A DNA stretch of 64,000 nucleotides from the NCBI GenBank assembly GCA_025928155.1, contig JAICKC010000004.1:1-64000 (forward strand), written 5' to 3'. The notes under the pieces were generated by a model, which was not told the DNA's origin, did not search any database, and worked only from the letters and a program-made list of their open reading frames with translations. Positions 10,653-33,759 of the stretch are shown here, one piece after another. The translations under genes and the position numbers were made by a program. The stretch comes from Candidatus Saccharimonadota bacterium. Its GTDB lineage: Bacteria; Patescibacteriota; Saccharimonadia; Saccharimonadales; UBA4665. The first letter of the stretch is position 1; the number at the start of each line of letters is the position of its first letter.

Positions 10653-10714
10653 AAAAATCCAACGGCATCAATACTTATTGGACTTTCACTCAAACCTGTA
10701 CTGTAGTTAGGCTC
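10653..10714. repeat. Composite boundary repeat, copy A (CCAG-type hairpin)
   Basis: AAAAATCCAACGGC...ACTTATTGGA hairpin, then a conserved stretch with CTGTACTGTAGTTAG ending in AGGCTC. It is the most divergent and leftmost copy of the family that separates gene modules to 33.6 kb. Read on the minus strand, the hairpin ends in TTTTT and would terminate leftward transcription. Confidence 0.6.
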
Positions 10715-10792
10715 GTTCTGACAGATGGATGGCGGTGTCACAAACTACCTGCTACGGATTCTCGGCGTTGGCCCTGAGTTCAAAGAAAGTGC

Positions 10793-11254
10793 TCACGCTT
10801 CTGCCTCTACACGTACATCAATAAAATGACCATTTTTCTCGCTATCCTGATTAATCCATATATTCTGCGGTATTGCTCGGTAGAGGCGTCGAGGCCTATC
10901 ACCCATAAATTCATCTGGTGGCTGGTTCGCGTCTGGCACACGTAGCCTACGAAGCTCGCATACCTTGGCTATTTCATTCGGGTCGGTAACCTCTGCGGCC
11001 ATGGCCTGCATAAATACGCCCCTACCCGTACCCCACGGCACTGTGGAATCATACACAACTATGAACACCTTACTATTAGTATAAATATTCTGAGAGTGCT
11101 GACTTTTAACGTATGAAGCCCAATAAAAAGTGTAAAGTTCGTCGTATACACAGTATACGGGGCTGTTCCAAGGGCTACCATCGGCGTCTACAGTCGAGAG
11201 TGTTGCATAGTAGATGCTGTCAAGGATGGACTTGGCTTTGTCGTTTGGTTCCAT
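10793..11254 (-). CDS. Pyridoxamine 5'-phosphate oxidase-family (FMN split-barrel) protein
   Basis: A 153-aa protein of the split-barrel flavin/F420-binding fold. The opening YYATLSTVDADGSPWNSPVY and the FYWASYVKSQHSQNI segment match the FMN-contacting strands of PNPOx-like proteins; VFIVVYDS continues the barrel. These proteins are usually small FMN-dependent reductases or oxidases, and this is not a full PdxH. It lies 6 bp downstream of the RidA-family gene in the same operon. Confidence 0.85.
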   Translation of the reverse strand: MEPNDKAKSILDSIYYATLSTVDADGSPWNSPVYCVYDELYTFYWASYVKSQHSQNIYTNSKVFIVVYDSTVPWGTGRGVFMQAMAAEVTDPNEIAKVCELRRLRVPDANQPPDEFMGDRPRRLYRAIPQNIWINQDSEKNGHFIDVRVEAEA

Positions 11255-11260
11255 AGCCTA

Positions 11261-11638
11261 CTACTTCACTGCTATAACACTCATTTCGATGCTGGCGCCG
11301 AGCGGTAGTGCCTGTACGCACACGGCCTCTCGGACGGGGAACGGTTTCCTGAAATAGGTCGGATAAACGGTGTTAAGTTCCGGCATGATAGACATGTCGG
11401 TAACGTAAATGACTACCTTTACAATGTTCCTGAACGAGACATCTCCGGCCTTGAGGATGGCTTCGATATTTTTCATAATTTGAGCCACTTTATCTTCCGT
11501 CGACTCACCTACCAGTGTGTTATCTGGTAGCGCGTGGATTTGGCCAGAAACATAAATAGTGTCGATGCCTTGCACTTTGATACCCTGCGACAAAAAGGGT
11601 GCATCGGGGGCGTCATCTGTAGTAAGCGACTGTTTCAT
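11261..11638 (-). CDS. RidA/YjgF-family protein
   Basis: A 125-aa protein of the RidA superfamily, which hydrolyses reactive enamine/imine intermediates from PLP enzymes or acts as a related deaminase. Recognisable elements are YVSGQI, QIMKNIEAILKAGDVSFRNIVKV, YVTDM and PVREAVCVQALPLGASIEM, including the conserved Arg of the VREAV strand. The ATG at 11636-11638 is chosen because GAGGAGGG sits just upstream; an apparent upstream start would translate that ribosome-binding site. It is first in a two-gene operon with the PPOX-like gene, suggesting shared detoxification or flavin/PLP-linked chemistry. Confidence 0.88.
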   Translation of the reverse strand: MKQSLTTDDAPDAPFLSQGIKVQGIDTIYVSGQIHALPDNTLVGESTEDKVAQIMKNIEAILKAGDVSFRNIVKVVIYVTDMSIMPELNTVYPTYFRKPFPVREAVCVQALPLGASIEMSVIAVK

Positions 11639-11752
11639 ATCCCTCCTCACTTATATTATTTCCTCATGATAGCAGGCATCCATACTGGCACAGAAGTGAA
11701 TAACGCCTCAGGGCTCGGTTTACTAGGTTTGAACTCGTTTGGTACTCTACCG

Positions 11753-12562
11753 CTAGCTGGTAGTCTTGCGGCGAAATAGCCATGAGGCGATGGGCATCGC
11801 GACGATAAGCGTGCTAATACTCCAGACTACGGCCAGCCAGCCGTGATTGCCGAGCGGCGTACCGAGGATCAAGGCCCGCACGGCGTCCACAACTTGGGTT
11901 ATGGGTTGGTTTTCGGCGAAGGCTCGTAACACGCGATTCATACCTTCAGCCGGAACGAACGCGGTACTCGCAAACGTCAATGGGAGTACTAGCACAAAGG
12001 TTAGCCATTGCACGCCCTCGACGCTTTTGGCCAGAACGCCAACAATAGCCGCCAGCCATGAGAACGCCAGAGTGAACAAGAAAAGAATACCGGCAATCTC
12101 CAGCCAACCAATGAGGCTGGCATGGGGCCGAAAACCGATGGCCAGTCCGGCGAGCAGCATGACAATCGTCGAGATACTGTTACGAAACAGGTCGGACACA
12201 ACGTGGCCATTAAGTACAGCTAGGTTTGACATCGGGAGTGAGCGAAAACGATCGACGATCCCCTTCTGCAAGTCATTACAAACAGCAGTCGCCGTCGTGG
12301 TACAGCCAAAGGCTGCAGTCTGCACGATAATCCCTGCCATTAGGAAGTTGAGACAGCTGACGCTGGGCGGCAGCGCCTTGGAGATTGCGCCACCGAACAC
12401 CGTTGAGAACAACACCAAAAACATAATCGGTTGAAAAAACGCGCCCAATAGCTGATCCCGGTTGCGGCTGCTGTGCCGGCTGCTGCGCTTGACCATAATG
12501 AGTGAATCCCGCACGCTCATGAAGGGCCTAGAACGCTTCTCGAATACGAGCTTAACTGCCAT
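11753..12562 (-). CDS. ABC-2 type transporter permease (DrrB-like)
   Basis: A 269-aa protein with six hydrophobic segments and the ABC-2 signature: QPIMFLVLFSTVFGGAIS in helix one and two, GIVDRFRSLPMSNLAVL in the cytoplasmic loop, and FASTAFVPAEGMNRVLRAFA then NQPITQVVDAVRAL. This matches the DrrB (daunorubicin resistance) export permease. It starts at the last base of the neighbouring ATPase C-terminus (12562), so it is translationally coupled. Its ATPase partner is frameshifted in this sequence. Confidence 0.88.
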   Translation of the reverse strand: MAVKLVFEKRSRPFMSVRDSLIMVKRSSRHSSRNRDQLLGAFFQPIMFLVLFSTVFGGAISKALPPSVSCLNFLMAGIIVQTAAFGCTTTATAVCNDLQKGIVDRFRSLPMSNLAVLNGHVVSDLFRNSISTIVMLLAGLAIGFRPHASLIGWLEIAGILFLFTLAFSWLAAIVGVLAKSVEGVQWLTFVLVLPLTFASTAFVPAEGMNRVLRAFAENQPITQVVDAVRALILGTPLGNHGWLAVVWSISTLIVAMPIASWLFRRKTTS

Positions 12563-13532
12563 TATTGCTCATCCTCCTTTCGAGCCTCTTTTTGCTTGCC
12601 AGTGAGTGACAGGAAGACGTCGCCGAGGGTGGGTTTGTGGATGGCCATGGATTGGATGGTAATCCTTTCCTCGGCAAGTATATCGAGGGTTTTTCTGATA
12701 TCCGTACTGGTATCTTTGATCACCACAGTTATGGTATAGACCTTCTCGTCGGTATCGATAATATCTTTGCCAAGCACCTTGACCGCGCGGGCCAGCGATG
12801 AGCTATCTATTAAACGTCAGCTCTAGCCGATCTTTGTCGACCTTGCTCTTTAGCTCTGTAGCGGTGCCTTCCGCAATAACCTTACCTCCGTCTATGACAA
12901 CGATACGGTCTGCTAGCTGATCTGCTTCTTCAAGATATTGCGTCGTCAAAAGGATGGAAGTTCCGGCAGCCATCAGGTTCTTGATAATCTCCCACATCGC
13001 TAGGCGCGAGCGCGGATCGAGGCCGGTTGTCGGCTCGTCAAGGAATATGACGGGTGGTGCAGCAATCAGACTTACCGCTAGATCGAGCCGACGACGCATC
13101 CCGCCAGAGTAGGTTTTGGCGGGGCGATCGGCCGCTTCAATTAAGTCGAATTCTTCCAGCAATTCTTGCGTGCGCGCCTTGGCGCTATCTGCCGTCAGCT
13201 GGTAGAGCCGACCCCATCATTACCAGGTTTTCACGGCCCGTTAGGAGGTCGTCGACAGCGGCAGACTGTCCGGTTAAGCCAATGACTCCGCGGACTTTAT
13301 CGGGTTCGGTGGCTACATCGTGTCCCTCTACGGTCACGGTACCACCGTCAAAGGCCAACAGCGTGCTCAAGATGCGTACAGTCGTCGTTTTACCGGCGCC
13401 ATTCGGGCCCAGTAAAGCAAGCATGGTCCCGCGTTCTAGCTTTAAGTCGATGCCCCGAAGGACTTGATTGGAGCCGTACGACTTCGTCAGATTTTTTGCT
13501 TCAACAACGTATGTATCCAGTTCCTGCGCCAT
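12562..13532 (-). pseudogene. DrrA-like ABC transporter ATPase broken by two frameshifts
   Basis: Three reading-frame pieces together make one full DrrA-type ATPase. The first runs from the ATG at 13530-13532 and has Walker A GPNGAGKTTT. The second has the signature KTYSGGMRRRLDLA and Walker B VIFLDEPTTGLDP. The third is the C-terminal DrrA domain ending PTLGDVFLSLTGKQ. Frame is restored by removing one base near 13200 (in GGGTCGG on the minus strand, recovering GRLYQLTADSAKA) and one near 12804 (TTTAATAGATAG, recovering SSSLARAVKVLGK). Either the gene is dead or the sequence has two single-base errors; the intact coupled permease favours errors or recent decay. Confidence 0.85.
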
Positions 13533-13790
13533 GAATCCTCTCTTAGTTTTACCGTGTGAAGTGGTACTTAATGATAAGTAGTATAGACGAGTAGCGGGCG
13601 ACTCGCCAATATAACTACCTGCAGGAACGGTCAAATGGTTTGGTCGTTCTCAAGGAGTGAATTATAAACAGCTCTTGATGTTGCCGTTTCTGAGGCTTGC
13701 GACTTAAGGAGGCGTTATAAGAGTCATGGTACTACGAGGAGAGGTAATCCCTCTTTAGATCTCGGAACTCTCTAACGTCAAGGCTTTAAA

Positions 13791-16760: not shown

Positions 16761-16864
16761 TGAACATCCGTATTGAGATGGAACCGAATAATACCTTCGG
16801 TCGGAAAATATTCTACGAAGGCTCGCTCAACCTTGATGATCTCAGGGTAGGTTCTTGCTGTTAG
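16760..16864 (+). pseudogene. Remnant of a PLD-like gene
   Basis: A 34-codon frame beginning GTG and overlapping the preceding stop. It contains GRKIFYEGSLNLDDL, which closely matches DRKILYEGSLNILSQ of the PLD-like protein at 33756-34238; the DNA is also alike (TCTACGAAGGCTCGCTCAAC). The His-x-Lys catalytic part is missing. It is a short fragment left by duplication or recombination. Confidence 0.6.
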
Positions 16865-18068: not shown

Positions 18069-18238
18069 TGTCAAATAAATATAAGCACCCTAATGTATGT
18101 CCTTGAAACCCATCAGCCAATCTTAGTACAAGCAGAAGACACTCTATCGTGCTGGTCGCTGGCCCAGACCAACCTGAGAGTCAAATAACCACCTTCGAGG
18201 CAGCTTTTATTTGGCTCAACTTGCTGGCCACGAACTTT

Positions 18239-18985
18239 TTAGCGATACTCGGGATTCTCGCTTTTGGCGTTGGAAACATGCCCCCAACCATCGGTAGTGT
18301 TGCCGATAGCAGGAATGCCGTCGTTATCTTTAAGAAGGCGGGCAGTATGCATCAAATTCCAGGCCATGAATGTTGTGTTTCGATTGGTGAAATCGTTGGC
18401 GAAACCAAGGGGTATGTGACCATCGCCAATTGGTTTTCCATTCCACTCAGTGTCACCATAGCTTGGACCGGGCCCGGCTTCGCCGATCCAGCCGCAGTCT
18501 GCTTGCGGCGGAACCATATAGCCGATGTGCTGCATAGCGTATAGTATGTCCATTGCACAGTGTTTAATGCCATCTTCGTTCCCTGTAATAACGCAACCCG
18601 CAGTCTTACCGTAGTATAGATACTGCCCTTTACTGTTGCGGTCGCCGCTATAAGCGTACATTCGCTCAATGACCTGAGTAGCAACGCTCGATTTCACCCC
18701 AAGCCATATTGGCGTACCGATCACTAATATGTCGGCGGCCATAATCTGTTTCTGGATAGCGGGCCACTCATCCTTTTGATTTTCCTCGGCACCATCTTTA
18801 ATCATGCCAAAGGCAATAATGTGATCGAGTGCGTATACCTGTTCAACCTTAACACCCTCAGCCTCCATGATATGGACTGCCTTGTCCATTAGTAGTTGCG
18901 TATGTGACTTTGTCTTATCTTTTTTAATCGAACAGTTAATAAACAGTGCTCGCAAATCGTCAAAATGGTGTTGCAGCTGGTCCAT
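18239..18985 (-). CDS. Flavodoxin-like NAD(P)H-dependent FMN reductase family protein
   Basis: A 248-aa alpha/beta flavoprotein. The first strand and phosphate loop read ALFINCSIKKDKTKSHTQ, the middle ADILVIGTPIWLGVKSSVAT holds the flavin-contacting GTPIWxG turn, and GKTAGCVITGNEDGIKHCAM holds the third flavin loop. This is the NADPH-dependent FMN reductase/flavodoxin family; electron acceptor unknown. It is the first module of the accessory region, with boundary repeat B upstream of it. Confidence 0.85.
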   Translation of the reverse strand: MDQLQHHFDDLRALFINCSIKKDKTKSHTQLLMDKAVHIMEAEGVKVEQVYALDHIIAFGMIKDGAEENQKDEWPAIQKQIMAADILVIGTPIWLGVKSSVATQVIERMYAYSGDRNSKGQYLYYGKTAGCVITGNEDGIKHCAMDILYAMQHIGYMVPPQADCGWIGEAGPGPSYGDTEWNGKPIGDGHIPLGFANDFTNRNTTFMAWNLMHTARLLKDNDGIPAIGNTTDGWGHVSNAKSENPEYR

Positions 18986-19050
18986 ATGTCTCCTGTCCCT
19001 TAGGTATCTAATTTCAGTATACAGCTAATGGGGTGCCGTATCGCCGCAGC

Positions 19051-19119
19051 AAAAAAATCCAGCAGCCTGAATGCTTGCTGGAGCTTTACTCAAACTTGTA
19101 CTGCAGTTAGCCTTGGCTC
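19051..19119. repeat. Composite boundary repeat, copy B (CCAG-type hairpin)
   Basis: A7 then TCCAGCAGC...GCTTGCTGGA, then CTTGTACTGCAGTTAG and the core CCTTGGCTC. It serves as a minus-strand terminator after the COG4705-like gene. Its tail (CCTCTAGTG...) differs from the other copies. Confidence 0.75.
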
Positions 19120-19163
19120 CCTCTAGTGTTGGAAGTTAGAACCAACCTAGTACTTGGCTCTAT

Positions 19164-19937: not shown

Positions 19938-20150
19938 CCCTTTATTATAAACAGTCGGAATTCTAGCCTTGTCTACTATGCCCACCCAAAATAAAAAACA
20001 GAAGCAAATACCTCTGTTAATCTTCGTTATAACTTTGGCTCACCATGCCGGGCTTGGACTCTTTACTCTCGGCGCCTAGGAGCCTAGGCAACGCTTAACA
20101 AAAAGGCAGGAGATCTCATACTAGCTTTTATTGATAAATGAGTTAGTATA

Positions 20151-24176: not shown

Positions 24177-26081
24177 CTATGCGATGGTTTCGATCAGGTA
24201 TGACGCGTCTGGTGGAAGTGTGAAGGATGCTTCCAAGTCGATAATCTTTGGCCTGCGTTCGCGTCCTCTTGTTGAGGTGAGCGTAATTACGCCGTTCGCT
24301 TGGTGGGCATCTAATAGTGAAACTGAGATGGTATTCTGAGAAAAGTTAGTAACTGAGATAATCTGTCGTCTGGGGTTTTTAGGATCGTTGCGGGCAAATG
24401 CGAGCACATCCCCATGGTCGGCATGAAGTATCCGTATCCCTCCTCCGTGCAGCGCAGAGTCATACTTGCGCTGCCTCAGAATTTCCCTGGCGAGTCGGTG
24501 TGGTGAACGTGGGTCACGTTGCTGTAGTTCGATGTTATCGCTTCGATAGACTTTTGGATCAACCGCCGGTAGCCACAGTTCCTCTGGTTGAGCATCGGAA
24601 AAACCACCATTCTTGGACGCGTCCCATGGTAGGGGCACACGTGCACCATCACGTTGTCCACTATCACCATCTTGTTGACGATCTTTAGGGACGATTATGT
24701 TGGCCCGTCCCAGCATGTCGCCCTGCCACATATAAAGAGCCCCTGGTAGTGCGCCCAGCAAAACACATACTGCCCGTGCGGTGGCTGCTGAATTGAGTCG
24801 TTTACGCAGCGGATCAGTGTCATGATTTCCCGACACTTGGTTCGGTACAGCACCCTCTAATGCGGACATCCGCGTATAGTAGTCCACGATTATGCGGCCG
24901 ATATTATGAGCCGTCCAGCGCGTACGATTTGTATTGAGTAGCATTTCGAAGTTAAACACATTTGCTCGGTCAGGTCGCAGATTATCTAGCCGGCCATCCT
25001 TATCGAGCGCAGACATCCAATCCTCAAAAATAAACCTGATATTCTTGCTCCGATACTTTGGTTCATCAAGGACTGAAACCAATTCATTGGCATAGTCACC
25101 CAGCTCCGGCCAATGACTCACTAATTTCTTCTGTTCCCATCGGTCATGAGGGTTTGTTACGCCGGGGTTGTATTCACCGATCTCCGTTCCGACAGGAGCA
25201 AGCTTCTCGTCACCGAAGTCAGGATCTTTGCCGATGTGGTTCATGACGTCAACCCGGAAGCTGTCTACGCCTCGATCAAGCCAGAAACGGACAACCTCTT
25301 TGATCTCTTCACGCACGGGAGGATGATTCCAGTTCAGCGATGGCTGCCCTTTCATAAACTCTGCGAGGTAGAACTGTCCGCGCGACTTACTCCATACCCA
25401 AGCTGTCACTGCGGGAATATCTGTAGCTCCCGGAACTTTGCCGGGGTTATCTTTCAGGAATTTATCTATCTCAGGTAACGAGAAAATGCTTGTCCAATTA
25501 TTTGGAACCGTGAAGCCGTCCGGTAAGTCTTCGAGTCGGTCGTTACCCACGATACCTTCTGGTAATTCACCTTTGACGGGCTTATGCCAGATGTAATAAT
25601 TTTTGTATGTATCAAAAAGTTCATGGGTCGGATCGCTGGATATTTTGAACCACTCGCTTTGGTCTGATGTATGGTTCGGAACGAGATCAAAAATAATACG
25701 GATGTCACGCTTATGTGCCTCACGAATAAGTTCCTCGACATCTTCCATTGTGCCAAGCTTGGGGTCGATCTTGCGGTAGTCCGAGATATCGTAGTTTCCG
25801 TCACATCCAGGTGACTCGTAGATGGGTCCAAGCCAGAATGCCGTTATGCCTGACTCTTGCGCCCAGTCTAGTTTTTCTGTGACACCAAGTATCGAGCCAA
25901 CGCCACAGTAACTCTCATTGTCACGCCGTACCTCATTGAATGTGTAAGGGTAGACGTGAAGTACATTCTCACTCCAGTCTCGATTAAGATAGGTCTCGTT
26001 TTGGACCGATTCGAACTCCGACGTTCGCTCTAAAAGCTGAACTGATTCAGGGCTAGACAGAGTAGTATGCCATGCAGCAAT
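24177..26081 (-). CDS. Glycoside hydrolase family 13 (alpha-amylase/alpha-glucosidase type), unusual start
   Basis: The open frame runs from a stop at 26091-26093 to 24177, about 634 aa. GH13 regions are clear: I DLVPNHTSD; II GVDSFRVDVMNH (nucleophile Asp); III IRFIFEDW (general acid Glu); IV VSGNHDTD. The early (beta/alpha) segment FWLGPIYESPGCDGNYDISD is also present. It probably cleaves or transfers alpha-glucosides in the cytoplasm. No ATG, GTG or TTG occurs in frame before the residue preceding EDVEEL (25746-25748), which would remove region-I-side strands. Options are ATT at 26079-26081 with AAGAGAG upstream, or a frameshifted start at ATG 26141-26143. Confidence 0.85.
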   Translation of the reverse strand: MAAWHTTLSSPESVQLLERTSEFESVQNETYLNRDWSENVLHVYPYTFNEVRRDNESYCGVGSILGVTEKLDWAQESGITAFWLGPIYESPGCDGNYDISDYRKIDPKLGTMEDVEELIREAHKRDIRIIFDLVPNHTSDQSEWFKISSDPTHELFDTYKNYYIWHKPVKGELPEGIVGNDRLEDLPDGFTVPNNWTSIFSLPEIDKFLKDNPGKVPGATDIPAVTAWVWSKSRGQFYLAEFMKGQPSLNWNHPPVREEIKEVVRFWLDRGVDSFRVDVMNHIGKDPDFGDEKLAPVGTEIGEYNPGVTNPHDRWEQKKLVSHWPELGDYANELVSVLDEPKYRSKNIRFIFEDWMSALDKDGRLDNLRPDRANVFNFEMLLNTNRTRWTAHNIGRIIVDYYTRMSALEGAVPNQVSGNHDTDPLRKRLNSAATARAVCVLLGALPGALYMWQGDMLGRANIIVPKDRQQDGDSGQRDGARVPLPWDASKNGGFSDAQPEELWLPAVDPKVYRSDNIELQQRDPRSPHRLAREILRQRKYDSALHGGGIRILHADHGDVLAFARNDPKNPRRQIISVTNFSQNTISVSLLDAHQANGVITLTSTRGRERRPKIIDLEASFTLPPDASYLIETIA

Positions 26082-26318
26082 GCTACTCTCTTAGTTTTAT
26101 AAATCAAATCCGGATCTTCACCTTCTAGGAAGAAAAACTTCATGCCCAAGTGCATAGATAAAACATAATGCCATTGAAACGGTATTGCTATAAGTTAACT
26201 TTTGTCTACCTATGGAGTGCTTGATTAAAGCCCAAATACATACCGGATATGGCTACAGTAAAACTCCTGCTGATAAGCAGTACGCCCATACCCTGTCCAG
26301 CATGCAAAGGTTCCAGAC

Positions 26319-26942
26319 TTAGATTCCATCTGTGCAAACTTTTGATTTTATGAACGTTTCCTGTTCCAGTACTTGGAGTGCGGCGTCGGCGACCTCTTCC
26401 CGGCTGACGTACCATTTGGGAGGCCCGTGCTCTTGTAAGGTAAAGGGTTTTGGCGCAGTGTTCTGTAACTTCAGAACGCGCAACACTGTCCAATCAAGAC
26501 CACTTTGCTTCAATATCTCTACGTGTTCTATGCCGTCACGCACTCGCGTTGGATCGATCAGCCGGATGCTCGTATTCAGTATTCTGTCGATAAGAGTAAT
26601 ATGGTCACCCGGGAAACGTACGCCTGTTCCTGTCAGGCTGACGATGCGCGTAAGGTTTTGTGCTTTCACTACAGAAGCTAAGGATCGAATGGCTTCGGTT
26701 TGTACGTGCAGCGGAGAACCTTTTACATGGCCGATGAAGCTAACGACGGAATCTTGCTCGCTAATTAACTTTGCCAGATCATTCCTGTTGGTCGCATCAC
26801 ACGGCATAACAGTGAGACGTTCATATGGGGACAAATTATTAGTGTGGTGCACTCCCGCTTGCACAGAATGCCCGGCTGCCAGAGCGCGCTCTACGAAGAT
26901 TTTACCCGATCGTCCATTTGCGGCGATGACAGCTAATTTCAT
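26319..26942 (-). CDS. NAD(P)-binding SDR/NmrA-like protein
   Basis: A 207-aa atypical short-chain dehydrogenase-like protein. The N-terminal nucleotide loop is KLAVIAANGRSGKIFVERAL (AxNGxxG in place of GxxGxxG); VMPCDATNRNDLAKLI is the acidic 'DxxD' strand; SVVSFIGHVKG and IVSLTGTGV follow. It resembles BLVRB/NmrA-type reductases that sense or reduce with NAD(P)H. Start chosen at ATG 26940-26942 with AAGG upstream; a longer frame would run through repeat F. The module lies between GH13 and repeat F. Confidence 0.82.
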   Translation of the reverse strand: MKLAVIAANGRSGKIFVERALAAGHSVQAGVHHTNNLSPYERLTVMPCDATNRNDLAKLISEQDSVVSFIGHVKGSPLHVQTEAIRSLASVVKAQNLTRIVSLTGTGVRFPGDHITLIDRILNTSIRLIDPTRVRDGIEHVEILKQSGLDWTVLRVLKLQNTAPKPFTLQEHGPPKWYVSREEVADAALQVLEQETFIKSKVCTDGI

Positions 26943-27037
26943 CCATACCTTTTTGTTAACGATAACTATTAGAAGCATAAGCTTCGCGGGCTTGACTTGC
27001 AAGCAAACGCACTCCCAATAGATAAACGGCTGCAAAT

Positions 27038-27104
27038 AAAAAACCAGTAGCGTCAATGCTTACTGGATTCTTTCTCAACTCTGTACTGTAGTTAGTCTTG
27101 GCTC
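27038..27104. repeat. Composite boundary repeat, copy F (CCAG-type hairpin)
   Basis: AAAAAACCAGTAGC...GCTTACTGGATT, then CTCTGTACTGTAGTTAG and core TCTTGGCTC with AGCTTAGTGG tail. It sits just after the stop of the alpha/beta-hydrolase gene and acts as its minus-strand terminator (stem then TTTTTT). Confidence 0.8.
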
Positions 27105-27135
27105 AGCTTAGTGGACGAGCTTCGCAATTCACGAA

Positions 27136-27663
27136 TTAACTTTTCGGAAGCTGAGCTGCAAATTCTTTTATTACAGCAAAGTCCAAATAGTTGTGGGTTT
27201 CGCCCGGAAGTGAGTGTACGGAAACATTCTGGCGCTCAATCTTTTTAAAATATGCGGCAACATCATTGAATGAGCCAAGTGGATCGTGCTCATTTTGAAG
27301 AATAATAACGGGAAACTCGGTAGCTCGTAACCAATCGTCAGCGGGCAGGTTGTGATTTACGACCATTTCAAGGGGGAACCCGGTAAATAGACACGCCTTT
27401 GGTTGAAGTGTCGTCTCGGCTGCCGCTTTACTAGCTAATATACTTCCAGCAGACTTTGCAAAAACGCAATAGGGGCCGAAATTTTCCATTACTGTTGATA
27501 GTTGTTCCACCTCACGCGCTAGATCGATTTCGCTATCCCCGGTGTCCCAGTGCCTGTAATTTTGCGCGTAAGTCTGACTGAAAAGCGGAGCAAGTTCGCG
27601 CTCCACTTCTGTGATCCACTGTTTATGGCGCTTGCTGTTTCCGGGTAGTAAAAGTAAGTTCAT
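27136..27663 (-). CDS. Alpha/beta-hydrolase-like protein
   Basis: A 175-aa short alpha/beta hydrolase. The first strand is MNLLLLPGNSKRHKQW (oxyanion-side loop), the nucleophile elbow is CVFAKSAGSILA (Ser in AKSAG), VIILQNEHDPLGS supplies the acid, and LPGETHNY the His. It is close to RBBP9/YdeN-like or 'alpha/beta hydrolase of unknown function' proteins. Its ATG (27661-27663) follows immediately on the T-tract of a terminator hairpin (repeat G), so expression would need readthrough, a promoter inside the hairpin, or leaderless initiation. Confidence 0.75.
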   Translation of the reverse strand: MNLLLLPGNSKRHKQWITEVERELAPLFSQTYAQNYRHWDTGDSEIDLAREVEQLSTVMENFGPYCVFAKSAGSILASKAAAETTLQPKACLFTGFPLEMVVNHNLPADDWLRATEFPVIILQNEHDPLGSFNDVAAYFKKIERQNVSVHSLPGETHNYLDFAVIKEFAAQLPKS

Positions 27664-27715
27664 AAAAAAATAATGCCACAAATGTGACATTATTCATATT
27701 GCTTATGCTCGACTC
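27664..27715. repeat. Composite boundary repeat, copy G (AATGTC-type hairpin)
   Basis: AAAAAAATAATGCCACAAAT with its complement AATGTGACATTATT form the hairpin, then ATTGCTTATGCTCGACTC core variant and an AGCTTATCGGTCTCGAATC tail (antisense tRNA T-arm-like). Minus-strand terminator with seven T residues. Confidence 0.7.
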
Positions 27716-27755
27716 AGCTTATCGGTCTCGAATCTGATGAGTTGCAATGAATCAT

Positions 27756-27928
27756 ATGAGCTATATTGAAGACAGCATCACTAAAGCAGGGCTACATGAT
27801 GTTTTTCGAAAACTGCCTGCGTCGCATCAAAAGAGTACACAGAGTGGATTGAAGAAGCTAAGAAATCTGAAATTCGAGCCAGAAGAATTCAAGAAATGTT
27901 GGAAATGCTAAACCAAAAAATCCAGTAG
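27756..27928 (+). pseudogene. YdeI/OmdA-family C-terminal remnant with frameshift
   Basis: ATG at 27756 opens MSYIEDSITKAGLHDVFRKL then PASHQ; one missing base in the A-run near 27828 separates it from KEYTEWIEEAKKSEIRARRI followed by QEMLEML. The latter is the conserved C-terminus of YdeI/OmpD-associated proteins (PF13376-type, WIEEAKxxETRxRRI). Only this short part of the protein exists here. The stop codon lies inside repeat H, so the repeat truncates or borders the gene precisely. Confidence 0.75.
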
Positions 27929-27973
27929 CATGAATGCTTGCTGGTTTCTCTGTAAAATATATGCTCTTGGCTC
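27915..27973. repeat. Composite boundary repeat, copy H (CCAG-type hairpin)
   Basis: AAAAAATCCAGTAGC...GCTTGCTGG, then a shortened spacer and core TCTTGGCTC with AGGTTGCCGGTCTGGGACC tail. It terminates the minus-strand gene at 28015 and overlaps the end of the YdeI remnant. Confidence 0.75.
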
Positions 27974-28014
27974 AGGTTGCCGGTCTGGGACCTTCGGAAA
28001 GATAAACCAGCCTC

Positions 28015-29064
28015 TTAAGAGTCTAAGCTTATTAAACCCGGTACGACAATTGATGACCACTGGAACACTGAGCTTTCTCGCGGTGGACTTTCTTGCGGTC
28101 TCGCAGAGACTGCTATGTCTGCGTATTCTCCATATTGCTCATCAGTTATAATGCCTCGAGCATTCAACGCTTCAGCTATAGCGTCAACGTGCGCGAGGCC
28201 GAGCACCGTTAACTTGTGGGGAGTATCTTTTTGCCCCCAACCGTCTAGCATGAGGTGGATAAAGCGTTTGTCTCTCAGGAAGTTATATAGCAGCGTGACC
28301 TTTTGGACCTGATTCAGAGGCACTTCGTCACTTTTTAGCAGATCTATTACGGGTCTAATGGTGGACTGTTCAAGGAAATGATTCAGCACGGACGCTTCTT
28401 CTTGCCAGGTTATGCCTGCGTCAGTGAGGGAAGACTGTATGGACGCCAGAGCATGTGTAAGGTTCAGCGTGAACGTTTCGTCGCCCAGCATTTCTTTATA
28501 GCGCTTAATAACGTGAGACTCAATATAGCTCTCGAATGGGGGACGCTCGTGGGTTCTTATGTAGAGGTAATTGGTAACCTGTCTAAATAAGAGATACGTC
28601 TGAATATCTTCGCTGCCTATTTCAGGCTTCACCATAAGGTGCTCGATAATACTCTTATCATCTTCGCCGATAACTGTGACATCGCAACCTTCATACAGGT
28701 ATGTGGCGGCAGTGCATACTAATGCTGCCCGTTCACCGTCAATGTCGATTGCGCTGGCCATGTCTCCGGCGTCGAGTCGCACATGACTAAACTCTCCAAA
28801 AAAATCAGTGCCTCTACAGGTAACTCGGGGAGTGGGACCCTCATTAACTACGGTGATCGGTTGATTCCTGCCTATAACTTCTCCGCTGGTTGTAAGTGTC
28901 AGATCTACTTCACGACTTCCTGTGATAGCTGCTTCGTGGTCTACGGCAATAGCTGTAACAGTTTGCCCGGTTTCGTTGTGCAAAAGAGAAAGCGCAACAG
29001 CGCCTCCTCCTAGTTGAATAAAGAACCGAGATTGTGCCGCTGAATCTGTAGGAAGTATTTCCAT
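28015..29064 (-). CDS. Hypothetical protein, 349 aa
   Basis: Not recognised. The N-terminal half is beta-rich (RFFIQLGGGAVALSLLH, TAIAVDHEAAITGSREVDLT). The C-terminal half is helical (VTNYLYIRTHERPPFESYIE and so on), ending near a Pro-containing tail. No signal peptide or membrane segment. The GGGAVALS start could reflect a small-molecule methyltransferase-like or ASKHA-type opening, but no motif is complete. It stands as a single-gene module between repeats H and I. Confidence 0.55.
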   Translation of the reverse strand: MEILPTDSAAQSRFFIQLGGGAVALSLLHNETGQTVTAIAVDHEAAITGSREVDLTLTTSGEVIGRNQPITVVNEGPTPRVTCRGTDFFGEFSHVRLDAGDMASAIDIDGERAALVCTAATYLYEGCDVTVIGEDDKSIIEHLMVKPEIGSEDIQTYLLFRQVTNYLYIRTHERPPFESYIESHVIKRYKEMLGDETFTLNLTHALASIQSSLTDAGITWQEEASVLNHFLEQSTIRPVIDLLKSDEVPLNQVQKVTLLYNFLRDKRFIHLMLDGWGQKDTPHKLTVLGLAHVDAIAEALNARGIITDEQYGEYADIAVSARPQESPPRESSVFQWSSIVVPGLISLDS

Positions 29065-29149
29065 ATGGGGTGTTGTAGTCTAATTCTTCGCTGATAATAA
29101 GGCATGTCGTTGTCCGCACAAGCTGACGTATCGCCATATTCTAGCATGG

Positions 29150-29215
29150 AAAAATCCAGTAGCATCAGTGTCTACTGGATTTGACTTCAACTTTGTACCA
29201 TACCTAGTCTGGCTC
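29150..29215. repeat. Composite boundary repeat, copy I (CCAG-type hairpin)
   Basis: AAAAATCCAGTAGC...TCTACTGGATT, then ACTTTGTACCATACCTAGTC (GTA/TAC mini-stem) and core TGGCTC with a GCGTTGCAAG tail. A second hairpin element follows at once (29231). Confidence 0.75.
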
Positions 29216-29230
29216 GCGTTGCAAGACAGA

Positions 29231-29300
29231 AATAAAAGACCTCCGACTAATGGGGTCAAAATACTTATGGCTCACCACAATAGGGAAAGTTATAATCGTG
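29231..29300. repeat. Composite boundary repeat, copy I2 (GACCTCC-type hairpin, ACCACAATAG-type tail)
   Basis: AAAAGACCTCCGACTAATGG GGTC forms a short hairpin related to copy K; ATACTTATGGCTC is the core; the tail ACCACAATAGGGAAAGTTAT AATCG matches copy D's tail. A different hairpin with the same tail shows the mosaic nature of the family. Confidence 0.65.
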
Positions 29301-29319
29301 ATTAAGCAGGATTTTAGGG

Positions 29320-29787
29320 TTATTCAGATGTGCTAATCGACGAGGTACCGCCCTCGGCAGTAATAATCGCTGCCGTTGCGTTGATCGAAACAGAATTTGA
29401 GCGAGTGCCATTTGAAGCGGTACGATTTAATATCTGTGGCATGAGTTGCATGTGTACGTCTTCAGGTGATAAGTAATCATCCTCGTAACTAATTTTATGT
29501 TCTTCAGCTTTTGACTTCAAAAACGTCATACCTTTTTGGAGTTTCTCAGTGTCATCTAGACCATACCCAATATCGACTGGGTTCTTGTCGTTTTCGTACA
29601 TGTGCGCATGATATGTGGCGTGACATGTCTGATCTATATGCCCCATACCGACCAATTTAAGCTTCCCATTTACTTCATGTTTGTGCTGCCATGCGATTAC
29701 CAGATCATTATGATCGTCCTGAACTAATATTCTCCAATTACTATGGGCAAAAGAGTGCGTGTATTCGGCTGCATTTTTATGAACCAT
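29320..29787 (-). CDS. Hypothetical protein, 155 aa
   Basis: Unrecognised. The N-terminal ~70 residues are rich in His, Asn and aromatic residues (SFAHSNWRILVQDDHNDLVI, HATYHAHMYEND) and look like a small beta-rich domain. The C-terminal ~50 residues are Ser/Thr/Ala-rich and probably disordered. No signal or membrane segment. Single-gene module between repeats I2 and J. Confidence 0.5.
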   Translation of the reverse strand: MVHKNAAEYTHSFAHSNWRILVQDDHNDLVIAWQHKHEVNGKLKLVGMGHIDQTCHATYHAHMYENDKNPVDIGYGLDDTEKLQKGMTFLKSKAEEHKISYEDDYLSPEDVHMQLMPQILNRTASNGTRSNSVSINATAAIITAEGGTSSISTSE

Positions 29788-29851
29788 ATTTATATATTAC
29801 GCTTAATAATTAATCTTATCTCCGACTTTGACATACGGTTTCAATACCATC

Positions 29852-30022
29852 TTGGGTATACAAAAAGTCAGAACCGAATCAACAGTTCTGGCTTCATCTA
29901 GTACGGCTTGGCTCGGCGTTTGCTTCGGGAATATAACCTTTACAGAAGATAAAGAAGTTGATGTCAACAGCCTCCATCTACTGCTTGGAGAATATAAAGG
30001 AGAAGCGGTAGACAAAGGTTGA
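29852..30022 (+). repeat. Composite boundary repeat, copy J, with GGCGTTTGC-type tail and ORF fragment
   Basis: The hairpin portion (29852-29900) matches copy E; the core is CTTGGCTC at 29907-29914; the tail GGCGTTTGCTTCGGGAATAT AACC is shared with copies K and M and runs on as a coding-like fragment, FGNITFTEDKEVDVNSLHLL then a stop at 30020-30022. The amino-acid sequence is better conserved among the three copies than random drift would predict. Confidence 0.7.
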
Positions 30023-30024
30023 GA

Positions 30025-30636
30025 TCAAGACAGCGCCTGAGTCTGTATTGGTGACACTATTCTTTTGAACATTGTCTCCAGACCCGACAGATCCATAGCC
30101 TCAGCGGCAAGTCGAGAAGCTTCATCATTCTCTCCGTCCATAACGGCATCCCAATTTATCGTATAACCAGCGTCACGGGCTACTCTCGACCAAAATACGC
30201 GTTGTGTCCGGCCATTGCCTTCTCGAAACGGGTGGATGTAGTTTAGCTGGTCGTAATAATAAGCAAGGCGTTTTACAAAGGCATCTTCACCCAAATCCTT
30301 TAGGTGGTTTTCCTTGGCGAGCTCCGTGAAAACATAGTTCCCGGCGTCTAGAATTTTACTAACCACCAAGAAGTACTCAGTATCTTCTCCGTTCTTCCTG
30401 ATGTCGACAGTCCTGATTTGACCAGCCCAGTCATATACTCCTTTGAAGAGCTGTCTGTGAATGGCGAGTACTTCATTCAGGTCATTGGAGCGAGGAATGG
30501 ACGCGCTTTCGAGCTCTAGCTCGTTCGCAAAAACCACTTGTGGTTCTAGCTTGCTTAATTCCTGAGAGGTCTTTGCGTTTAGAAGATTCCTCAGATCGCC
30601 GATACTTTTATCAAAGTACGGGTCGATGAATGTCAC
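30025..30636 (-). CDS. Fic/DOC-family AMPylator toxin
   Basis: A 203-aa Fic-domain protein. The catalytic motif is complete: HPFREGNGRTQR (HxFx(D/E)GNGRxxR), with the flap region GAGQIRTVDIRKNG-like segment (WAGQIRTVDIRKNGEDT) upstream. Fic toxins transfer AMP to targets such as gyrase and topoisomerase IV or EF-Tu. GTG at 30634-30636 starts directly after the antitoxin stop codon, so the two form a toxin-antitoxin pair on the minus strand. A class I arrangement (separate inhibitory helix) is implied. Confidence 0.92.
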   Translation of the reverse strand: MTFIDPYFDKSIGDLRNLLNAKTSQELSKLEPQVVFANELELESASIPRSNDLNEVLAIHRQLFKGVYDWAGQIRTVDIRKNGEDTEYFLVVSKILDAGNYVFTELAKENHLKDLGEDAFVKRLAYYYDQLNYIHPFREGNGRTQRVFWSRVARDAGYTINWDAVMDGENDEASRLAAEAMDLSGLETMFKRIVSPIQTQALS

Positions 30637-30813
30637 CTATAGAACTCCGTAGCGAGCTCGTATTTTCTCAGCTGCTTGCTTAGCCGAGACCTTCCCTACG
30701 ACATAGCTGTCCGCAATCTTCTTAGATTCTGCAGAAACCCTTAACCCCTCAAGCCGTTCATTCGCAACGGCTTGTTTTACGATGTTTTTTCGTTTTTCGT
30801 CAGTTGTTTTCAT
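30637..30813 (-). CDS. VbhA-like antitoxin of the Fic toxin
   Basis: A 58-aa protein starting at ATG 30811-30813. It has the antitoxin layout VKQAVANERLEGLRVSAESK then ADSYVVGKVSAKQAAEKIRA. The inhibitory helix motif of class I Fic antitoxins, (S/T)xxxE(G/N), appears as NERLEG: the Glu that blocks ATP positioning is present, but the first residue is Asn rather than Ser/Thr. Stop codon abuts the Fic start. Function is inferred from position and this pattern. Confidence 0.85.
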   Translation of the reverse strand: MKTTDEKRKNIVKQAVANERLEGLRVSAESKKIADSYVVGKVSAKQAAEKIRARYGVL

Positions 30814-30828
30814 GCTTATATTATACAA

Positions 30829-31010
30829 CAAAAAAGACCTCCGATGAAGTCTTTCATTGTGCTTATGCTTGGCTCGGCGTTTGCTTCGGGAATATAACCT
30901 TTACACCAGAAGAGGATATTGATGTCAAACGGCTTAATATGTTAATCGAGGGCCGTGAATATATTGACGGTGAGAGTGCTGCATGGGACGATGCCAGGAC
31001 CAAGTTTTGA
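30829..31010 (+). repeat. Composite boundary repeat, copy K, with GGCGTTTGC-type tail and ORF fragment
   Basis: Hairpin AAAAAAGACCTCCGATGAAG TCTTT is like copy C; then GTGCTTATGCTTGGCTC core and the J/K/M tail, continuing as FGNITFTPEEDIDVKRLNML then IEGREYIDGES and a stop at 31008-31010. On the minus strand the hairpin sits just upstream of the antitoxin start. Confidence 0.7.
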
Positions 31011-31080
31011 TTAAAGTACCTTCTTCCTGGTTGGTTATATTCTGAGTATCTGCTGCTTTCTTATTCCCCAATCCTGTAGT

Positions 31081-32052
31081 ATGGTTTGGGGTATAGAATG
31101 TATATCATCCATCGAAGCCTCTGCTTTTGTTCCGGAAGAAATATTCCGTGCCAGTATTGATGCAACTTATCGTCATGTACCTGACACGGAAATCGGGCTT
31201 ATGCGAGACCCGGGCGTTTTCTTAAAGCGACTTACTATCGGCCAAGAAGATGCTCCCACGCGACAACTATTTGTACTGGGTACATCGCATACGAATACCG
31301 CAAGCGAGTTGTCTTTGGTTCAAGGTGCCTGCAGACTAATGTTTGGCTCTCCAGACATGACGCTAGAGAACCCGAGCCTAATTGTAGAAGAGCGAGAACG
31401 AAATCCCGACATGGGCTCTTCCGATGAGTATACTTTTCAGAAAGAGGGTGAAATTGCAGTGGTAGAAAAGTATTTTAGAGGAACAACGGGCAAAAGAGTG
31501 CTGAGTTTTGGCCTAGACCCAGGGACATGGACAGCATTAGCTAACAAGTACGGTGTCGAAAGGGCGCGAAAGTACGTGCAATATCGACTCGGGCCACAGT
31601 GGAGCGCTATCCCTGATAGCGAGAGGCCAACGCTCGACCAATACTTCGCTGAAGCGCTTGGGCGCTACCCGGAAATTACAATGTCACTTCCAAATAATTA
31701 CCCGGTATCTACCGTCAGGCGACTCTCAGAGTTGGTTCTCAAGGTATCTGATGTTATGGAACCGGCAGACCGGCGGTACTTGGCCGAATGGTTGCGTCGT
31801 CAGACGATTGCTCCTTACGCTCTCCGTGAGAAAGAAGCAAAGCTAACCCCGATGCAGTACTTTTCAATAATAGTGAACAAAGAACGTGCTATGGCTCTGC
31901 TCCGTACTACTCTCCAAGAGCTGCGAAGTGGTCATGATGTGTGCATTGCTGGCGGAGAACTCCATGGAGTGACAACCACAGAAGCTATAGACAGGGCGCA
32001 GGGAGAACTCGGTTGGCACGTCATTCAAGAGGACTTAGCGCTCGTTGCGTAG
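31081..32052 (+). CDS. TraB/PrgY-like (GumN/TIKI superfamily) protein, tentative
   Basis: A 323-aa soluble protein. Near the N-terminus LFVLGTSHTNTASELSLV has the GTSH pattern; near the C-terminus HDVCIAGGELHGVTTTEAID has a second His motif and is followed by GWHV. This pair of His-containing ends around a helical middle is the layout of TraB/GumN/TIKI metallohydrolase-like proteins. The middle has no diagnostic motif. Start ATG 31081 lacks a clear ribosome-binding site. It is a plus-strand module between repeats K and L. Confidence 0.5.
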   Translation: MVWGIECISSIEASAFVPEEIFRASIDATYRHVPDTEIGLMRDPGVFLKRLTIGQEDAPTRQLFVLGTSHTNTASELSLVQGACRLMFGSPDMTLENPSLIVEERERNPDMGSSDEYTFQKEGEIAVVEKYFRGTTGKRVLSFGLDPGTWTALANKYGVERARKYVQYRLGPQWSAIPDSERPTLDQYFAEALGRYPEITMSLPNNYPVSTVRRLSELVLKVSDVMEPADRRYLAEWLRRQTIAPYALREKEAKLTPMQYFSIIVNKERAMALLRTTLQELRSGHDVCIAGGELHGVTTTEAIDRAQGELGWHVIQEDLALVA

Positions 32053-32150
32053 TTACTACAAAGCCTCCGAGGTCTAGCCGTTACGATTTATATCTTGTGG
32101 TGAGGACAAAACTGGATTCGAACTTTCGTAACAGAGATAGAAATAAAGAT

Positions 32151-32215
32151 AGATCAGAAAACCAAACGTTCCTGATCTGTTATTTTTCTTGGCTCAGCTT
32201 GCCGGTCTCGAACCT
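32151..32215. repeat. Composite boundary repeat, copy L (GATCAG-type hairpin)
   Basis: GATCAGAAAACCAAACGTTC CTGATC hairpin, TTATTTTTCTTGGCTC core and an AGCTTGCCGGTCTCGAACC tail. This is the best antisense match to a tRNA T-loop and 3' end, with CCA-equivalent and TTCGA spacing as in the real tRNA-like gene at 36089. It encodes the last residues (TGSRPAS) and stop of the GT4 gene. Confidence 0.7.
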
Positions 32216-33186
32216 GTATGCACTGATTCTAGAGGAAGATACTTTAAAAGCGAGTCAACCGACTCAGCCAGAGTGAACTCATGTACGGCAGCTTTCCGTT
32301 CCTTCGTGGTCGATAATCCGAGGGCCACCGCTTCGCCTATTGCAGTTATTAATGCTTGGGGATTGCGTTCTTCGACCAAAGTCAGTAAGCCACAATTAGT
32401 CTCTGATAGTCCCCCTAGGCTACTTGCAATAACACGACAGCCACTATGTTGGCCTTCGACCGATAGCATTCCAAATGGCTCAGCAAATACCGAGGGCATT
32501 AGCAAGATGTCCGTTTTTGCGAGCAGTGCTGCCATGGATGCAACGTCCCTGCGTGGCTCTAACAGTTTCGCATATTTATAGCCGTGTAACATCTTTGCGA
32601 TCGTTCGTCCTTCTTCGACATGTTGCCCCGCCATAACGATACTCATATGCACGCCGAGCACACCCATTTCGTATTGGTGCATCATCTCGAGTATCGTATA
32701 AATTCCCTTTTCCGGATGGAGCCGACCAGCATATAGAACGTTAACTTTCTTTCCTGGCTTTGATCGCCGCGAATTTCCATATATAGGATCCGCAAATGGC
32801 ATTACCACCTCGATTGCGCTGCTTGGTATCTGTAAATACAGCGCCCATTGCTGTGCATTGTAAATACTGGTCGCGATAATTACCTTGCCTTCAACATCCT
32901 TTTTTCTTTCGTGCTGTTCCACTTTTGACGGAACGGCGCAGTGTAAGATGATGGCTGCCTTATGTCGTGTGGGTATGTCGTATGCTCGATTAACAAAGAC
33001 GACTGCGCCCGCTAATCGACTAATTTCTAATTTATCAACTAGGCCTAAAAATGGGACGCCCGGGAAGTCGCGTTTGCTTTGTGTGATTGCTGCGCCGACT
33101 ATAACTATCTGTGCATCAATTCCTCTGCGAATAAGCTCACGTATAGTGGCCTGCAGTGAAAGTCTCGGATCCACCTGTGCCAGCAA
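32194..33186 (-). CDS. GT4-family glycosyltransferase
   Basis: A 330-aa GT-B glycosyltransferase. The donor-side half has VNVLYAGRLHPEKGIYTILE, DILLMPSVFAEPFGMLSVEG (the EPFGxxxxEG nucleotide-sugar motif) and VIASSLGGLSE. The acceptor-side half is somewhat short. Start is TTG at 33184-33186, six bases after GAGGAGG; no ATG is available in frame. The last ~7 residues are encoded by the tail of repeat L, so the original C-terminus was probably altered when that element arrived. It may glycosylate a lipid or envelope component. Confidence 0.85.
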   Translation of the reverse strand: MLAQVDPRLSLQATIRELIRRGIDAQIVIVGAAITQSKRDFPGVPFLGLVDKLEISRLAGAVVFVNRAYDIPTRHKAAIILHCAVPSKVEQHERKKDVEGKVIIATSIYNAQQWALYLQIPSSAIEVVMPFADPIYGNSRRSKPGKKVNVLYAGRLHPEKGIYTILEMMHQYEMGVLGVHMSIVMAGQHVEEGRTIAKMLHGYKYAKLLEPRRDVASMAALLAKTDILLMPSVFAEPFGMLSVEGQHSGCRVIASSLGGLSETNCGLLTLVEERNPQALITAIGEAVALGLSTTKERKAAVHEFTLAESVDSLLKYLPLESVHTGSRPAS

Positions 33187-33580
33187 GCATAGCCTCCTCG
33201 GAAGGCCATATGAATGAGATCATATTTTTATGGCTAAGGCTTTCTAACTTGCTTGGGTTTTTTAATGGCCTTACGGCCTTTATCCGTCGACATTATTTAT
33301 AATCCGTGATGATATATTGTGAATAATGGACTTTCGACGGATTCTTCAATTTTTTAGTAGCGAATAAAGACACGATGTGATCCTTTCAGGAAATTCGGAA
33401 GACTTTACCGACCAACATCAATCTTTTCGCCTGCTCCTGGCTGGAAATTTAGTGTTAAAGTGATCTTATATGTAGTATGCGCTCATTTACTGTGATTGCC
33501 TAATCGAATGCCGGATAAAAACACTTTCTTGGTTCCTAAAAACCGTTACCCATGGAGCAGTAGAACATATTTTATGTAAG
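33187..33580. other. Intergenic gap without recognisable gene
   Basis: About 390 bp between the GT4 start and repeat M. It holds a short hairpin GGCCTTACGGCC near 33265-33285 and AT-rich promoter-like stretches. No reading frame longer than about 50 codons looks coding. Confidence 0.5.
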
Positions 33581-33645
33581 AAAAATCCAGTATATCAATG
33601 CTTACTGGATTTAACTTCAAATCTGTACTGTACCTAGTCTGGCTC
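33581..33645. repeat. Composite boundary repeat, copy M (CCAG-type hairpin, GGCGTTTGC-type tail)
   Basis: AAAAATCCAGTA...TACTGGATT, then AATCTGTACTGTACCTAGTC (GTA/TAC mini-stem), core TGGCTC, and the tail shared with J and K. It is the rightmost copy. A small ORF starts in its hairpin loop. Confidence 0.8.
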
Positions 33646-33759
33646 GGCGTTTGCTTCGGGAATATAATCTTTACAGAAGATAAGGAGCCGGATGTCAAAC
33701 AGGTCAATCTGTTAATCGAGAGCGGTGAGGATATTGAAGACGAGGAGGTGTCGCAATGA
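33598..33759 (+). CDS. Small protein, 53 aa, spanning repeat M and coupled to PLD gene
   Basis: The ATG lies in the loop of the repeat hairpin; the N-terminal 20 residues encoded by the repeat are hydrophobic (MLTGFNFKSVLYLVWLGVCF), followed by an acidic tail (EDKEPDVKQVNLLIESGEDI). The stop overlaps the PLD start (ATGA) and GAGGAGG lies just before it, so translation coupling is likely and this frame is probably real. Copies J and K carry related tails without the PLD gene. It could be an immunity or antitoxin-like partner; that is inference. Confidence 0.5.
   Translation: MLTGFNFKSVLYLVWLGVCFGNIIFTEDKEPDVKQVNLLIESGEDIEDEEVSQ

Follow-up and report, generated by a model that had tools for sequence, protein, structure and literature searches.

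The analysed window is the stretch from position 1 to 64,000 of contig JAICKC010000004.1 (C23 in the following; assembly GCA_025928155.1), part of the 1.30-Mb genome of a Candidatus Saccharimonadota bacterium. Between positions 10653 and 36128 it contains a series of boundary elements parting short stretches of genes, and this series is interpreted here as gene cassettes arrayed in tandem behind the 3' end of a tRNA-Asn gene. A first-pass annotation had described the elements as a hairpin, a spacer, a TTGGCTC core and a tail; each element that it listed was confirmed on re-reading, and three members are added, one at 20041 with its own terminator, one at 18217 with tail and core only, and one at 36089-36094, which is the displaced tRNA-Asn 3' end and has a layout like that of the other elements. 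Read on the minus strand, i.e., in the direction of the tRNA gene, an element consists of a tail (types T1, T2, T4 and T6), the core GAGCCA and a trailer with a terminator hairpin. In this direction the features are as follows:

36088-36128, minus strand: element N, start of the array, displaced 3' part of tRNA-Asn(GTT); core GAGCCA at 36089-36094; 41 nt identical to C23:74229-74269
36045-36078, minus strand: terminator hairpin of N, from the fold and the core/hairpin rule
33756-35936, plus strand (opposite): three genes between N and M, one PLD-like and two without Pfam match
33575-33665, minus strand: element M, tail T6, CCAG-type trailer and terminator; core 33640-33645
32194-33186, minus strand: glycosyltransferase group 1 cassette gene, between M and L
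32148-32216, minus strand: element L, tail T2, GATCAG terminator; core 32190-32195
31081-32052, plus strand (opposite): cassette gene without Pfam match, between L and K
30826-30905, minus strand: element K, tail T6, AGCATAAGC trailer, GACTTC terminator; core 30870-30875
30025-30831, minus strand: Fic and VbhA-type antitoxin cassette genes, between K and J
29855-29935, minus strand: element J, tail T6, AGTCAGAA terminator; core 29909-29914
29320-29787, minus strand: cassette gene of 155 aa without Pfam match
29225-29310, minus strand: element I2, tail T1; core 29268-29273
29150-29222, minus strand: element I, CCAG-type trailer and terminator; core 29210-29215
28015-29064, minus strand: cassette gene of 349 aa without Pfam or PADLOC match
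27916-27995, minus strand: element H, tail T2, CCAG-type; core 27968-27973
27666-27740, minus strand: element G, T2-like tail, AATGTC terminator; degenerate core 27710-27715
27136-27690, minus strand: alpha/beta hydrolase cassette gene
27032-27125, minus strand: element F, tail T4, CCAG-type; core 27099-27104
26319-27056, minus strand: NAD(P)-binding NmrA-like cassette gene
24177-25748, minus strand: alpha-amylase family cassette gene
24085-24160, minus strand: element E, AGTCAGAA terminator; degenerate core CAGCCA 24130-24135
21875-24010, minus strand: two cassette genes between E and D, FtsX-like permease and ABC-transporter ATPase
21723-21820, minus strand: element D, tail T1, CCAG-type; core 21789-21794
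21195-21710, minus strand: AAA_33 kinase-like cassette gene
21122-21200, minus strand: element C, tail T2, AGCATAAGC trailer, GACTTC terminator; core 21166-21171
20151-21038, plus strand (opposite): cassette gene without Pfam match
19985-20070, minus strand: additional element, tail T2, own terminator; core 20036-20041
19164-19985, minus strand: DUF347 cassette gene
19047-19150, minus strand: element B, tail T4, CCAG-type; core 19114-19119
18239-18985, minus strand: FMN reductase / flavodoxin-like cassette gene
18212-18240, minus strand: additional degenerate element, tail T2, no clear terminator; core 18212-18217
10653-10725, minus strand: element A, last recognisable, CCAG-type terminator; degenerate core 10709-10714

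Concerning the core, the shared motif TTGGCTC is indeed enriched, as first proposed (21 occurrences in the window versus 8.7 expected; none of 100 shuffles reached 21), but only six of its bases are constant, TGGCTC or, on the minus strand, GAGCCA: the seven bases are CTGGCTC in D, I and M and ATGGCTC in I2, and degenerate cores are found in A (AGGCTC), E (TGGCTG) and G (CGACTC). A rule requiring the core GAGCC[AG], with GAGTCG and CAGCCA also allowed so as to admit G and E, and then a hairpin with a T-run matches 13 sites on the minus strand, every one within 19119-36094, and three on the plus strand, which look unlike members; A, H, I2 and the member at 18217 are not picked up by it. The mosaic of tails and hairpins, with the switch at the core, is genuine in the window: T2 is found at C, H, L, 20041 and 18217 and, by eye, at G, T6 at J, K and M, T1 at D and I2, and T4 at B and F. 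Trailer and tail types pair freely in relatives too, and 36 of 74 trailers lie outside any named type. The hairpins are trailers with terminators, one brought by each cassette, and the tails are the other half of the attachment site. Of the site-specific exchange at the core that had been proposed as the source of the mosaic, the cassette array itself is supported, whereas no exchange between elements is needed, each element being the place where one cassette ends in its tail and its neighbour begins with its trailer.

Predicted folds of 14 elements contain terminator hairpins and no common tail fold, and the minus-strand hairpins are plausible as terminators, such that the elements might be taken for common intergenic terminators or members of a dispersed repeat family that keep their positions and share a motif by chance. 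This is hardly credible: the elements run in one direction throughout, even beside the plus-strand genes 20151-21038 and 31081-32052, they are clustered 3' of tRNA-Asn in relatives, and the relatives, whose content past the tRNA gene differs, contradict it. A search of positions 1-40000 against Rfam gave no family at gathering score and two chance-like matches (E up to 5).

The intact tRNA-Asn(GTT) gene is situated at C23:74233-74304, where it adjoins smpB; its 3' end reads ...CCCCGGAGCCA, and the minus-strand core GAGCCA is the 3' end of this tRNA gene. A block of 41 nt of tRNA-Asn is repeated at window positions 36088-36128; this copy comprises the 3' part only, and ARAGORN called no tRNA anywhere in the window. 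Between the intact gene (C23:74304) and the displaced copy (window 36088) lies a region of 38 kb that looks phage-like by eye; its phage-type tyrosine recombinase (36243-37286) is found at the displaced end, not at the intact tRNA gene. A prophage appears to have inserted in tRNA-Asn and displaced the old 3' end together with its terminator, which places the array on the 3' side of the original tRNA-Asn. The displaced end is also part of a strong predicted fold (36088-36172, z -6.4), in which the flank pairs with the acceptor end; this tRNA-like shape is called by neither ARAGORN nor Rfam.

This neighbourhood suggests that a tyrosine recombinase, either a phage integrase or the housekeeping Xer, could have put the cassettes at the tRNA 3' end, given that the phage-type enzyme adjoins the displaced tRNA-Asn end and that the prophage uses that tRNA with 41 nt of identity; tandem insertion at tRNA genes is usual for tyrosine recombinases. 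Such an origin is nevertheless highly unlikely. The array-bearing genomes G066 and G075 have one tyrosine recombinase match each, far from the array and of a type that is present in 13 of 14 genomes searched; the cassettes share about six bases with the tRNA gene, whereas the one prophage examined ends in a 41-nt copy; and a cassette tail forms the end of three islands that carry a large serine recombinase (LSR).

The units between cores are compact. Across the window and 58 loci of relatives, the 74 intervals between cores have a median length of 957 bp, and 69 contain an open reading frame (ORF) no shorter than 60 aa, which points in the direction of the tRNA gene in 55 of them and the opposite way in 14. 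In same-strand units of less than 2.5 kb, the gene starts at a median of 65.5 nt behind the core, and a median of 42.5 nt separates its stop from the core that follows; long intervals exist as well, for example of 7.2 kb in L198 and 5.3 kb in the window. Of the 34 genes starting at most 110 nt from a core, 21 have a -10-like box in front of them, compared with 140 of 440 upstream control ORFs (Fisher p 0.0006) and 22% of shuffles. The cargo in the window comprises FMN reductase, DUF347, kinase-like, FtsX/ABC, alpha-amylase, NmrA-like, hydrolase, Fic/VbhA, glycosyltransferase and PLD-like genes as well as unknowns. A 36-nt repeat (16796-16831 and 34101-34136, 89%) is a fragment of the PLD-like gene (33756-34238), its recurrence at 16.8 kb being perhaps an eroded second copy. 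At 12562-13634, an ABC-transporter ATPase, recognised by eye, extends over three frames (12562-12777, 12803-13162 and 13185-13634) and is possibly a pseudogene or an assembly error. On a 10.3-kb contig of the same genome (G000:C19, L106, position 7693), a T2 tail with core is found, perhaps a detached piece of an array.

For the relatives, a scan based on smpB alignment yielded 143 loci; of the best 80, 58 have tRNA-Asn on the same strand as smpB. Downstream of tRNA-Asn (347.7 kb), GAGCCA followed by a terminator occurs 33 times on the same strand and once on the opposite strand, in 18 of the 58 loci; upstream (626.9 kb), the numbers are 3 and 6. Tail profiles trained on 12 window tails alone (the training sites having been labelled earlier by a mixed profile) gave, at a cut of 8, 44 same-strand and 0 opposite-strand sites downstream and 0 and 1 upstream, in 22 of the 58 loci, and, at the loosest cut of 4, 49 and 3 downstream and 5 and 5 upstream, in 24 loci. 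Profiles trained on relatives only found 9 sites on the minus strand of the window and 0 on the plus strand; earlier profiles had been trained partly on the scanned loci, and one of their 31 forward matches was tRNA-Asn itself. The T2 motif with at most 3 mismatches was found at 21 sites in 16 of 93 genomes of the family (backward control 2). Array-type trailers are also seen, by eye, directly on tRNA-Asn (AGTCAGAA in L163, CCAG in L190, AGCATAAGC in L137), as would be expected if the newest cassette abuts the tRNA gene. Trailers beginning with GACCAAGCA or alike directly follow tRNA-Asn in L175, L189, L203 and L205 and may be a structured RNA or part of the attachment site; homology past the tRNA gene is common to L166, L175, L184, L196 and L205 and to L169, L189, L203, L208 and L212.

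Two sets of close relatives differ at the exact site. L177, L178 and L195 are 80-90% identical over 10.6 kb up to the end of tRNA-Asn (offsets 0, 0 and +3), past which BLAST finds no match; the sequence of L178 beyond the tRNA gene comprises just 740 bp. The aligned blocks of L197 and L198 are 89-95% identical; the two match to +12 past the tRNA gene, and +19 to +1438 of L197 corresponds to +5775 to +7190 of L198 at 95%, such that L198 is longer by 5.76 kb at the tRNA end, by its own gain or a loss in L197; L198 has an additional T1 site further on. Fixed positions in relatives, which would speak against a modular array, were thus not found after the tRNA end, and the variation of modules in both sets bears out the idea of a cassette-like array of one- or two-gene modules, built by putative site-specific recombination. 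Over all relatives, homology ends at most 5 nt from the tRNA end in 983 of 1163 pairs, mostly distant ones, and more than 60 nt from it in 31; since distant pairs align in little but the tRNA gene, the conclusion rests on the few close pairs. The first cassettes of distant genomes are more similar than smpB in 15 of 15 pairs (e.g., L169/L189, 78.0% versus 66.3%), a weak result because the pairs were chosen for homology running past the tRNA gene.

Homologous or transformation-driven exchange at conserved tRNA ends and terminators, with no dedicated recombinase, could likewise make relatives differ here. Further indels exist near the locus in L197 and L198, and trailer types resemble those behind other tRNA genes of this genome by eye, the CCAG type that of tRNA-Gln(TTG), with a weak BLAST match (E 0.12), and the AGCATAAGC type those of tRNA-Lys(TTT) and tRNA-Arg(TCT). 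A core of six bases is, however, too short for homologous exchange, the orientation is strict and the breakpoints lie at the tRNA end, so that the probability of this explanation is very small.

Concerning the enzyme, LSR genes are found in 61 of the 93 family genomes, and 13 of the 22 LSRs that passed the filter have a tRNA gene at their 3' end (L141, L162 and L182 are among those filtered out). Three of the 58 tRNA-Asn loci end at the tRNA gene; in six of the other 55, an antisense frame of 491-550 aa crosses the core into tRNA-Asn, ending for example in ...SLSWLRGLDSNQRPKR, and all six frames contain resolvase and recombinase domains (PF00239/PF07508). The LSR islands at tRNA-Asn measure about 13-17 kb and possess tails like those of the cassettes. 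In the LSR group of L139, three close enzymes (100, 76 and 71% to L139) all end in tRNA-Asn, and each of the three islands is followed first by tail T1, which is also found on LSR-less cassettes, including D and I2 of the window. In the LSR frame, T1 reads WLTTIEEVIT.IK, with differences at the three codon positions of 0.15/0.18/0.31 (most at the third position); judged from its sequence, T1 is likely the native C-terminus of the LSR, exchanged for a tRNA-encoded one on insertion. One LSR island at tRNA-Asn (L249 2378-16261, genome G007) contains IMS-polymerase and SRAP genes, and the G007 island furthermore carries a Mza-like defence set with MzaB-E, a cytosine methylase and a methyl-directed restriction enzyme.

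The genome studied here possesses three LSRs, all on contigs other than that of the array and each near a tRNA gene. The frame passes through the tRNA end in two of them (tRNA-Lys and tRNA-Glu, not tRNA-Gln), and 10-nt repeats of the tRNA end are found, among these LSR loci, at tRNA-Lys only. At this tRNA-Lys(CTT) (L261, G000:C5), there is an apparent second tandem array, with a resident LSR that runs into the tRNA gene and a methylase-bearing island. Copies of the tRNA-Lys end in the tRNA's own orientation follow about 11.5 and 13.4 kb downstream (10 nt; 0 on the reverse strand) and a third time 16.4 kb downstream (8 nt; 1 on the reverse strand), and the tails read WRAIVDAIAT, WRAIVNAIAT and WRASVYVIAT in the LSR frame. 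The array design seems to occur twice in one genome, at tRNA-Lys with the LSR retained.

There is good support for the cassette array and for its anchoring at tRNA-Asn, from a shared site, its position and orientation, the compactness of the units, the differences between relatives at the exact site and the LSR frames crossing the core. With a probability of about 0.7, the array is a tandem row of gene cassettes, most of them non-autonomous, that entered at the 3' end of tRNA-Asn, most likely through tRNA-Asn-specific LSRs; catalysis by LSRs is the best inference for the enzyme. In the direction of the tRNA gene, a cassette would consist of a trailer with terminator, often a -10-like box, one or two genes and a tail. 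In a presumed circular form, its own tail and trailer would be joined at GAGCCA to form attP, and recombination with the tRNA-Asn 3' end as attB would place the newest cassette beside the tRNA gene, which would be left whole and given a terminator. Older cassettes would be shifted downstream, every boundary then comprising the tail of one cassette, the core and the trailer of the next. The enzyme would come from the LSR family on autonomous islands at the same site, LSR-less cassettes being moved in trans.

The sharing of tails between cassettes and the 13-17-kb LSR islands at tRNA-Asn could also be read in the opposite direction, the cassettes being remnants of larger LSR islands or prophages at this site, pared to one useful gene and never self-mobile as small units. 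Some cores are degenerate and the L198 block holds several genes, as such erosion would allow, and genome reduction is general in Saccharibacteria. Erosion is still an unlikely origin: ragged leftovers would be expected, whereas compact, stereotyped units are found in many genomes; in those with the gene on the same strand, start and stop lie within tens of bases of the cores, behind a terminator and, in many cases, a promoter-like box. This compactness favours movement of LSR-less cassettes in trans.

Several points weigh against insertion by tRNA-Asn-specific LSRs. Canonical LSRs require attB, so that for re-insertion at an occupied tRNA gene the enzyme would have to be less exacting about the trailer side. 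No intact core is present at the far end of the 5.76-kb block of L198, and two further indels (about 2.7 and 0.9 kb) distinguish L197 from L198 upstream of the tRNA gene, so that change is not restricted to the core. No LSR was found at tRNA-Asn in this genome, which leaves current activity unsupported. The relatives are nearly all metagenome assemblies, one per species, and 36 of the 58 loci have no tail at a cut of 8. Neither a free LSR nor a free attP copy turned up: in viral contigs, three exact tail/trailer patterns and two degenerate C-terminus patterns gave no match and the LSR search found no relative; matches in phages and plasmids (176 and 31 records) were all below 60% identity (22-29% among the matches listed). 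An inverted-repeat relation between the arms is unsupported at 74 sites (offsets -6 to +6, z -1.9 to 2.1). In the LSR frame, T2 is not coding-like (codon-position differences 0.39/0.41/0.19) and T4 weakly so (0.40/0.27/0.43). The idea that all tails are native LSR C-termini was accordingly narrowed to T1 and the three tRNA-Lys tails; with its three copies, T6 has too few for the codon-position test.

Among known systems, the array shows similarities to several. Staphylococcal and Enterococcus cassette chromosomes (SCC/ECC) are described with the LSR class, the 3' end of a conserved gene, a circular form and variable cargo, and with multiple attR in 16 of 32 ECCs (PMC6222049); the arginine catabolic mobile element (ACME) and SCCmec are reported inserted in tandem (PMC5964201). 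Equally to SCC/ECC (ccr LSRs, rlmH 3' end), the array consists of tandem elements parted by repeated attachment sites, with LSRs as the proposed class; LSRs with PF00239/PF07508 domains are present at tRNA-Asn in relatives, and none was found there in this genome. It differs in its target, tRNA-Asn beside smpB instead of the rlmH 3' end, in its mostly one- or two-gene units without recombinase and with their own terminators, about 15 in the window, and in the phylum.

For integrons, tandem, mostly one-ORF units with a site behind a single entry site are described, as are clusters of attC sites lacking integron integrases (CALIN) and some cassettes with their own promoters (PMC8618304). The likeness of the array concerns the layout, i.e., tandem one-gene cassettes behind one entry site, whereas the site is a tRNA 3' end, the proposed enzyme belongs to another class, and the units have terminators and often a promoter-like box. 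No IntI, attI or attC was found (no attC model was used), and the sole tyrosine recombinase near the array of the window is on the prophage side. Tycheposons (4-200 kb, tyrosine recombinase, tRNA border; PMC10872708) share the tRNA end as attachment site; unlike in tycheposons, no tyrosine recombinase was found among the array genes scanned, a subset of ORFs. Mixed, unrelated half-attPs at one locus have been explained by mosaicism, with unresolved tandem arrays as a possible cause of some cases, in a survey that required islands of more than 5 kb with an integrase gene (PMC9580842); the units of the array, unlike those islands, are single-gene cassettes, and autonomous LSR islands share site and tail with them (T1, 3/3), the design at tRNA-Lys being alike. 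In its mode of working the array resembles an SCC composite island, in its layout an integron array, but it lacks a defining feature of each. A literature search that covered few subscription journals showed, among the papers listed, no account of tRNA-anchored gene cassettes or serine-recombinase arrays in Saccharibacteria.

It is conceivable, though somewhat short of an even chance, that these loci constitute an integron-like capture system in Saccharibacteria, with tRNA genes as entry sites, LSRs whose C-terminus is rewritten on insertion, the native tail giving way to a tRNA-encoded end, and self-contained one-gene cassettes that bring their own terminator and promoter and are moved in trans, operating at several tRNA genes and feeding the accessory genome of a reduced epibiotic lineage. 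If true, it would represent a second modular gene-capture architecture beside integrons, with another recombinase class and an essential tRNA gene as anchor, and it suggests a set of LSRs with naturally defined tRNA targets. For the small-genome, host-dependent Saccharibacteria themselves, it would provide a route for the gain and loss of accessory genes.

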